A stretch of 64,000 nucleotides of DNA from Pyrococcus horikoshii OT3 (GTDB taxonomy: Archaea > Methanobacteriota_B > Thermococci > Thermococcales > Thermococcaceae), in assembly GCF_000011105.1 (NCBI RefSeq), contig NC_000961.1, forward strand, positions 62,001 to 126,000, written 5' to 3'. Positions 51,171 to 53,218 of this stretch are shown here, one piece after another. Under the pieces are notes generated by a model. It did no database searches and had not been told where the DNA came from. It worked only from the letters and a program-made list of their open reading frames with translations. Position 1 is the stretch's first letter. Every line of letters starts with the position of its first letter. Made by a program: the position numbers and the translations under genes.

Positions 51171-51551
51171 ATGGAGCTTCCCCTTCTCTCCGGTATTACT
51201 AGGAGAACCCTTGATTCTATATTGAGGAACCCTTATAGAACTATAGAAATAAGGAGTGCTAGAAATTATCTAGTTCTAGAGAGAGTTCACGAGGGAGATT
51301 TGATATTTTTAACTTATGAATCTCTTGAGGATGTGACCAAGGGAACCGAGGGGATCATAGCTAAAGTTGTTAGAATTGAGAGGACTCACCAGAGGATTCC
51401 CTGGGAGGAGAGCGATGAAAGGGAGATGAGCATATGTAGGGTTCAACTAAGACTCGTTGGTCTCGGTAGAATAATAGAGATTCACGAAAGGGAAGGAGTT
51501 ACAATGGTTAAAGTTAGGGAAATGACGCATCATGAGATCAGCATGGGGTAA
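51171..51551 (+). CDS. DUF473 family protein
   Basis: 126 residues matching the small archaeal DUF473 family in size and in segments such as RRTLDSILRNPYRTIEIRSARN and GDLIFLTYES. It looks like a compact beta-rich domain related to ASCH/PUA-type folds; function is unknown. The start is ATG 51171 behind GAGGTGA (51160-51166). It is paired with the PAC2 gene upstream. The last 14 bases overlap the convergent nucS gene. Confidence 0.65.
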   Translation: MELPLLSGITRRTLDSILRNPYRTIEIRSARNYLVLERVHEGDLIFLTYESLEDVTKGTEGIIAKVVRIERTHQRIPWEESDEREMSICRVQLRLVGLGRIIEIHEREGVTMVKVREMTHHEISMG

Positions 51552-52299
51552 AGAAGTCCAAGGTTTTCTGCTTTACTTCCCTCTTATTGTCATTATTCTT
51601 TGGAGGCTCAAGCTTTCTAAACTCTAATCCTTCTTTTTCTAGTAGCTTTTTAGCCCCCTCAGTTAATGAGGGGGCCACAAGAATTCCCCTTACCTTCTCC
51701 CCATACTCTTCCTTTAGAGAATCGACGTACCTCTTTAACTGACTAACGGCGTGTAAATCGGCCTTTCTCCTCTTCAATTCTAGGACTACTATGTTACCAT
51801 CCTTGTCGAGCCCCATTATATCTACTATCCCATGTTTTATCTGCTTCTCCCTGAACATGGGCTTAAATCCTTCTTCTATAACGTTTGGATTTTCGAATAT
51901 TAGCTTGGCCATTTCAGCTTCGCTCCCCGTTAGTGCTAATTCCTCATAATCCTCCGCAAGGAACACGGTTACAGCGTAGACTTCCATTAGCTCAACCTCG
52001 AGCCTTTCGTGGGGCTTTCTCCTAATACTTATGATAGAGTTTTCCCTCATGCTAACCTTGCTCCCAGGAGGTTGCCAATTGACGGGTTCTCTCTTTTTAT
52101 TTTGGTGAATCAAGAAGCTTCCATCTGGTTTAATAATGACTATTCTATCCCCTTCCCCAAGCTCACTCTTCGCCCTTCCTTCATAATATACTCTACATCT
52201 TGCGAAGATAGTAACAACTCCCCCATGCTTTTCGGCAATATCAAGTAGTTCTTTCACTTCCTCAACGGTTGGATTTTCCCTTGTTATTACCTTCTTCAT
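51538..52299 (-). CDS. nucS: NucS/EndoMS mismatch-specific endonuclease
   Basis: 253 residues with an N-terminal DNA-binding domain (about 1-120) and a C-terminal RecB-like nuclease core with GIVDIMGLD and VVLELKRRKA supplying the D...E-x-K residues. NucS cuts both strands at mismatches and also acts on flaps; it works with PCNA through the C-terminal PIP motif QKTLDFF, visible six residues from the end here. It is the archaeal non-MutS mismatch repair nuclease. The ATG at 52299 has no strong ribosome site. It is divergent from the DUF63 gene. Confidence 0.93.
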   Translation of the reverse strand: MKKVITRENPTVEEVKELLDIAEKHGGVVTIFARCRVYYEGRAKSELGEGDRIVIIKPDGSFLIHQNKKREPVNWQPPGSKVSMRENSIISIRRKPHERLEVELMEVYAVTVFLAEDYEELALTGSEAEMAKLIFENPNVIEEGFKPMFREKQIKHGIVDIMGLDKDGNIVVLELKRRKADLHAVSQLKRYVDSLKEEYGEKVRGILVAPSLTEGAKKLLEKEGLEFRKLEPPKNNDNKREVKQKTLDFFTPC

Positions 52300-52347: not shown

Positions 52348-53151
52348 ATGGGGATAAAGGTGAACTTACATCAGTTCTTTTGGGAGTACTTTATAAGACC
52401 AATGTACACGAGGGAGGGATATAATCCGATAAATACAGTTGTCTATGCTCTAATTTTTGGCTTTGCAGTGATTTACACGTATAAGTATATAATAAAACCT
52501 TTGAAAATTAAGGTTGATGAAAGGCTCTTCCTGGCCGTTACTCCTATGGTTATCTTTGGTTCAACGATTAGGGCCTTAGTTGATGGTGGGGTTTTGGCTC
52601 CAAACCCCTGGATCTTAACCCCTGGAATATTCTTCACGGCCTTCTTCTTGATCCTCCCAGTTTTGTTTGCCGACGTTAAGCTGAAGCTTTATCCAAAGCT
52701 AACGATAGCTTGGGGTTCCTTGTTAGCAATTTATGCCAACTATCTATTAATAATCAATGTGAAGTGCTGGAAGCCGTATGAGTTGACGTTGCTTCATGCC
52801 CTGGTTAGCTTTGCTGTAGTATTGGCTTACTATAAGTTTAAGCCATTTGAAAAGCTTTATCTCTACCCTACGCTAGCCCACTACTTTGACATAGCGTCAA
52901 CCGTTGTGGCCATACACTTTTATGGTTATAGGGAAGTTCACTGGGTGGAAAAGTACCTCGTAGGGATGTTTGGGGCTTATGCTTATTACCCCTGGATAAC
53001 GATCATCCTAATTATCGTGTATTACGTGTTGAAAGAGTTAGTATTAGATCCAGAGGAGAGATATTATTGGTATCTAGCTGTCTACATCCTAGGCCTCGGG
53101 CCAGGGATAAGGGATCCAGCCCAGATGGTACTACAGATACCATGCCGATGA
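52348..53151 (+). CDS. DUF63 membrane protein
   Basis: 267 residues with about seven membrane helices. Motifs of archaeal DUF63 include NPINTVVYAL, VIFGSTIRALVDGG, LAHYFDIAST and the C-terminal GLGPGIRDPAQMVLQ. Function is unknown. The ATG is at 52348 behind AAAGGTG. The TGA stop at 53149-53151 lies inside the C box of the C/D sRNA, so the gene end and the sRNA 5' end overlap. Confidence 0.8.
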   Translation: MGIKVNLHQFFWEYFIRPMYTREGYNPINTVVYALIFGFAVIYTYKYIIKPLKIKVDERLFLAVTPMVIFGSTIRALVDGGVLAPNPWILTPGIFFTAFFLILPVLFADVKLKLYPKLTIAWGSLLAIYANYLLIINVKCWKPYELTLLHALVSFAVVLAYYKFKPFEKLYLYPTLAHYFDIASTVVAIHFYGYREVHWVEKYLVGMFGAYAYYPWITIILIIVYYVLKELVLDPEERYYWYLAVYILGLGPGIRDPAQMVLQIPCR

Positions 53152-53201
53152 TGAGACCGGTACTGGCCGAAGTATGATGAGCACTCGGTTAGCTGAGGCC
53201 T
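53142..53201 (+). ncRNA. C/D box guide sRNA
   Basis: Canonical layout: C box ATGATGA (53148-53154), 12-nt guide, D' box CCGA (53167-53170, one change from CTGA), 3-nt spacer, C' box ATGATGA (53174-53180), 12-nt guide, D box CTGA (53193-53196), and a short terminal stem GCC/GGC. Spacings are those of Pyrococcus box C/D RNAs that direct 2'-O-methylation. The D' guide is complementary to CCAGUACCG, resembling a conserved 23S rRNA segment; the D guide target (CUAACCGAGUGC) I cannot place. Confidence 0.88.
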
Positions 53202-53204
53202 GAA

Positions 53205-53218
53205 AAAGGTTAAATATA
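53205..53218 (+). promoter_or_regulatory. BRE/TATA promoter of a leaderless gene
   Basis: AAAAGG followed by TTAAATATA (53210-53218). The TATA centre is 22-25 bases from the ATG codons at 53236 and 53239, and no ribosome site exists, so the mRNA is probably leaderless. Confidence 0.6.

Follow-up and report, generated by a model that had tools for sequence, protein, structure and literature searches.

Most archaeal box C/D sRNA genes are without a promoter of their own, and their maturation needs the box motifs, not the flanks (PMC7994747). In about 25% of archaeal C/D genes the sequence includes the stop codon of the upstream gene, and in nearly half of these the stop lies in the C box (PMC7994747). 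For C/D genes that overlap the 3ʹ end of a gene, the effect measured with a reporter was neutral or slightly negative (PMC7994747). Species rich in sRNAs are known to show redundant targeting (PMC4644070); the main text of that paper mentions neither Pyrococcus nor Thermococcus. Here we describe a locus of Pyrococcus horikoshii in which the stop codon of a DUF63 gene and the C box of a guide sRNA share their bases, and we compare it with its relatives in other Thermococcaceae.

The window, which is the whole stretch of 64,000 nucleotides that was analysed, covers positions 62001-126000 of the single 1,738,505-base contig of P. horikoshii OT3 (NC_000961.1). The final codons of the DUF63 gene in this window, TGC CGA TGA, are at the same time the 5ʹ part of the sRNA (Table 1). 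C, Dʹ, Cʹ and D boxes were found in this order together with guides of about 12 nt and a short terminal stem, and the Dʹ box CCGA is a variant. The C-Dʹ-Cʹ-D pattern occurred once in the window, against a mean of 0.0 in 60 randomised windows generated with an order-2 Markov model. The C/D box sRNAs of Pyrococcus were reportedly described by Gaspin et al. in 2000, the source given for the snoPyro_CD family. The sRNA matched this family (RF00095) over the full model length, at 53144-53199, with 43.7 bits and an E-value of 6.1e-8. Because this score is just below the gathering score of 45 bits, the default Rfam scan of the window was empty and missed the locus; the genome has 33 significant RF00095 matches, and 24 of them likewise fall under the cut-off. 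A preliminary description made from the sequence had placed here a C/D guide sRNA with the DUF63 TGA in its C box, and a base-for-base check, the Rfam match and the pattern count confirmed both this reading and all of its coordinates. We concluded that the locus very probably encodes a housekeeping box C/D guide sRNA of the archaeal type, carried within the 3ʹ end of the DUF63 mRNA.

Table 1. Features of the sRNA locus, in window positions.
Feature	Position	Strand	Basis
DUF63 membrane-protein gene (host gene)	52348..53151	+	ORF, 267 aa; PF01889, E 2.5e-74
Box C/D guide sRNA, snoPyro_CD type	53144..53199	+	Rfam RF00095; conservation; covariance model R1, 76.4 bits
Terminal stem, 5ʹ strand GCC; codes end of Cys codon and start of Arg codon of DUF63	53144..53146	+	Pairs with 53197-53199
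C box ATGATGA, contains DUF63 stop	53148..53154	+	Sequence
DUF63 stop codon TGA	53149..53151	+	Sequence, ORF
Dʹ guide GACCGGTACTGG	53155..53166	+	Complementary to 23S local 1976-1986 (contig 194704-194714)
Dʹ box CCGA (CTGA in other Pyrococcus)	53167..53170	+	Sequence, comparison
Cʹ box ATGATGA	53174..53180	+	Sequence, comparison; AGT between Dʹ box and Cʹ box
D guide GCACTCGGTTAG	53181..53192	+	Consensus of the family pairs with 23S local 2003-2012
D box CTGA	53193..53196	+	Sequence, comparison
Terminal stem, 3ʹ strand GGC	53197..53199	+	Pairs with 53144-53146
GGTTAAATA, TATA-like sequence before downstream gene (start 53236), immediately 3ʹ of sRNA	53208..53216	+	Sequence

On the two sides of the locus, GGTTAAATA would be the promoter of the downstream gene, and GTTAAATA recurs just behind the sRNA, before the downstream gene, in most Pyrococcus. 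A NucS endonuclease gene (window 51538-52299, minus strand) stands divergent to DUF63. Those Pyrococcus loci that were read upstream have this neighbour, and the four loci of other genera that were looked at do not.

The 58-nt unit with the stop in its C box was present at the same place in each of the eight Pyrococcus genomes whose DUF63 gene is intact, the genome of the window included. The C box was ATGATGA, ATGACGA or ATGAGGA in these genomes, and its first TGA, which is the stop, was constant; the same TGA was invariant in 38 of 38 parsed family members, where the parsing pattern itself demanded TGA. The 5ʹ strand of the terminal stem and base 1 of the C box code for the final DUF63 residues, and the C-terminus in Pyrococcus is Cys followed by Gln, Arg or Gly. 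When the eight sequences were compared, the terminal stem (helix 1) was 95.8% paired and two of its three pairs showed changes on both sides. A C-G pair was replaced by G-C in Pyrococcus L037, where the last DUF63 residue becomes Gly, and a U-A pair was replaced by C-G in the sRNA of the window. Changes on both sides of the stem combined with a varying last residue argue that the RNA stem is maintained by compensatory changes even where the end of the protein alters. The set was small, and its covariation score was equalled by 29 of 500 shuffles. In other genera, DUF63 orthologues are shorter at the 3ʹ end by about one to four codons and stop with TGA, TAA or TAG, and no sRNA was found at the 3ʹ end of DUF63 in those that were read.

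The sRNA was found in another place in these genera. A search with R1, the covariance model built from the eight Pyrococcus sequences, gave, in most other Thermococcaceae, a strong second group scoring about 52-75 bits, and the next full-length matches had 36 bits or less, with two truncated matches between. The sRNA lies away from DUF63 in about 45 genomes of other genera, and at all of the 30 loci read it was divergent from a MarC-family gene (PF01914). When the 33 bases upstream of the sRNA were examined, a TATA-like motif was present at 26 of 30 loci of other genera versus none of the eight Pyrococcus loci, which is a count of motifs and not a promoter assay. The misses in g4 and g5 had TTTATAAAG or TTATAAAG slightly closer to the sRNA. 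The MarC gene is present in Pyrococcus, where its upstream region contained no sRNA and the TATA-like motif there leads to another reading frame. Two g2 genomes (L182 and L183) had a C/D-like RNA beside MarC on the strand opposite to that in the other genera, with a similar Dʹ guide and another D guide.

Among the complete genomes, DUF63 was most diverged in g2 and g6 (54-58% identity). For this reason the home beside MarC is probably the older one, and the home at DUF63 probably arose in Pyrococcus, as judged from the sequences rather than from a rooted tree. In the lineage of Pyrococcus the sRNA would have come to lie at the 3ʹ end of DUF63, where its C box would have given the new stop and its terminal stem the last codons; this move would explain why the DUF63 stop doubles as the first UGA of the C box. 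Since the Pyrococcus copies carry no promoter motif of their own, the sRNA most likely comes from DUF63 transcripts and is probably processed from the mRNA. Processing of this kind had been raised in the preliminary description, and it gained support by inference, from Pyrococcus copies without the TATA motif that is usual elsewhere. The precursor would be transcribed from the DUF63 promoter, and L7Ae, Nop5 and fibrillarin would assemble on the K-turn (C/D) and the K-loop (Cʹ/Dʹ). The assembled proteins would shield a body of 56-58 nt while nucleases trim the flanking mRNA.

The sharing of a stop codon belongs to a class that has been described. The upstream stop was found inside the sRNA, in the C box, and a motif scan, which is all that this point is based on, found no upstream TATA motif. 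Five of 33 C/D loci of P. horikoshii have a C box in which an open frame of 113 codons or more terminates, these being open frames and not confirmed genes. The four other C/D sRNAs with an upstream frame stopping in the C box are at contig positions 420664, 1520050, 902264 and 230056. Because of this count and of the published frequencies of about 25% and nearly half (PMC7994747), the shared stop is an ordinary case of a documented and common archaeal arrangement, and not an anomaly. The overlap as such is likely to be without function. There is a TGA in the C box, and ATGATGA even has two in the same frame; an ORF that enters it in this one of the three frames must therefore stop, and the position would then be kept together with the C box; the five of 33 loci are consistent with this. 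Such an explanation accounts for the origin of the overlap and is compatible with the reading of the locus as a housekeeping guide in an mRNA 3ʹ end, so it does not compete with that reading.

The guides were compared with 16S, 23S, 5S and SRP RNA and with 45 tRNAs of P. horikoshii. The Dʹ guide paired with 23S local positions 1976-1986 (target CCAGUGCCGGU) by 11 pairs including one G-U, and position 5 of the guide, the fifth nucleotide upstream of the Dʹ box, faces U1980, which is therefore the predicted Um. U1980 corresponds to E. coli U1841 in an alignment to K-12 rrlB. Most relatives have a C in place of a T in this guide, which gives a perfect Dʹ core; the consensus core made 10 of 10 pairs, and only 3 of 400 shuffles were as good. 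The family consensus of the D guide, CACTCGGTTG, paired with 23S 2003-2012 by 10 pairs with one G-U, a result as good in 17 of 400 shuffles, and predicted Cm at C2006 (about 1879 in E. coli, where the alignment is gapped nearby). Position 2 of the D guide in P. horikoshii is an A, and the resulting A.C mismatch is private to this species (one of 38 family members) and leaves nine pairs. The D target C2006 rests on the guides of the relatives, because only nine pairs remain in P. horikoshii and an equally good site for its guide was found in 23S at 1663. The P. horikoshii D guide alone had no convincing target among tRNAs, 5S, SRP RNA and rRNA. When a perfect target of the D guide was searched for in the genome at one mismatch, only the sRNA locus and one coding-looking match were returned, and this candidate was rejected. 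The preliminary description had expected the Dʹ target in this region of 23S, where it was indeed found; for the D guide, the comparison that it had proposed against all rRNA and tRNA gave a clear answer with the guides of the relatives, and a weaker one with the P. horikoshii guide.

Double guides usually have two sites this near each other, and the two predicted sites are 26 nt apart. The guide cores were nearly invariant in 38 sequences of five genera. Across the eight Pyrococcus genomes the 23S target region did not vary, and 14 genomes agreed at every paired position. By E. coli numbering, both predicted sites presumably lie in helix 68. Helix 68 is among the listed archaeal methylation hotspots (PMC7994747). 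The RNP would direct 2ʹ-O-methylation in domain IV of 23S rRNA, at U1980 through Dʹ and at C2006 through D, the latter weakly in P. horikoshii. A 2,911-base circular record named as an E. coli plasmid, NZ_AP027616.1, contains only a 23S rRNA gene, which is unlike that of K-12 in its helix 68 region; the record is possibly an assembly artefact or foreign DNA.

The Dʹ box CCGA of the window was unique among the Pyrococcus copies, and the preliminary description had suggested that it may weaken one guide. In the 38 parsed family members, the Dʹ box was CTGA in 30, ATGA in five, CCGA in two and CGGA in one, and the D box was CCGA in 18, CTGA in 14 and CGGA in six. Position 5 of the C box and position 2 of the D box (A1 columns 10 and 52) lie opposite one another in the K-turn and change in step, with the pairs C/C in 15, T/T in 12, C/G in six, G/C in two, C/T in two and T/C in one. 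As CCGA recurs as a D-type box in this family, it appears to be tolerated there and is by itself no argument for a lost function. The variant box is present as described, but its effect was overstated, and the guide that is most weakened is D, with the A.C mismatch and nine pairs, not Dʹ with its 11 pairs.

A second C/D sRNA was found at contig 1732054-1732109. Its D guide TATCGGCACTGT is in the same register on 23S U1980, and its Dʹ guide is predicted to act on 23S 2021. None of the eight complete Pyrococcus genomes lacked it, and with up to three mismatches allowed it was found in 30 of 94 genomes. This second sRNA may relax selection on the Dʹ guide of the window. One may ask from this whether the P. 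horikoshii copy is decaying, that is, whether CCGA, the G-U pair in the Dʹ duplex and the broken position 2 of D have left it poorly active, a state tolerated through the other sRNA on U1980. The private D-guide change fits such a decay, and so does the second sRNA, with its D guide in the same register on U1980 and its presence in all eight complete genomes. However, every box and the stem are intact, the CCGA box and the G-U variant are found in other species of the family, and Dʹ retains 11 pairs. We therefore consider decay unlikely, and a functional housekeeping guide remains our preferred reading.

Competition between ribosomes and L7Ae for the shared bases, also raised in the preliminary description, is conceivable but finds no support in the present observations. 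A regulatory switch, in which K-turn-bound L7Ae opposes terminating ribosomes so that DUF63 translation sets a limit to sRNA maturation or the sRNP restrains DUF63 expression, is very improbable. In its favour, the stop is inside the K-turn core, where joint occupancy would be sterically unlikely, and L7Ae bound to a 5ʹ-UTR K-turn is a translational repressor in archaea (PMC5539422). Against it, 3ʹ overlaps were neutral or only slightly negative on a reporter (PMC7994747), nothing about DUF63 points to rRNA modification, and the sRNA is apart from DUF63 in about 45 genomes of other genera. We give equally little credence to a wider proposal, that with the move to DUF63 guide dosage came to depend on how a membrane-protein mRNA is transcribed and how its translation terminates, with ribosomes and L7Ae competing for one UGA and the second U1980 sRNA as a buffer.

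The housekeeping guide described here is preserved in two homes, mostly TATA-led in most Thermococcaceae and gene-embedded in Pyrococcus. Stop codons in C/D boxes are known, usually in one state only, and the two homes offer a natural comparison for the production of guide RNA without a promoter. The locus is also a case of RNA structure dictating the last amino acids of a protein.

Compared with snoPyro_CD (RF00095), the sRNA of the window has the same box order, spacings, 12-nt guides and short terminal stem and matches the full model; it differs in being 1.3 bits below the gathering score and in its Dʹ box CCGA. Compared with redundant C/D guides (PMC4644070), the likeness is that two different sRNAs are predicted on one rRNA nucleotide. 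Redundancy was reported there for only two species with very many sRNA genes, whereas the Pyrococcus pair consists of one Dʹ and one D guide and is kept over Pyrococcus and partly in other genera. The 3ʹ-overlapping archaeal C/D genes of Tripp et al. (2017), as far as they are summarised in PMC7994747, share with this locus the stop in the C box and the lack, here an apparent one, of an own promoter. What distinguishes the present case from that class, as it is summarised there, is that a non-overlapping and usually TATA-bearing state survives in sister genera, from which the change of home can be inferred.
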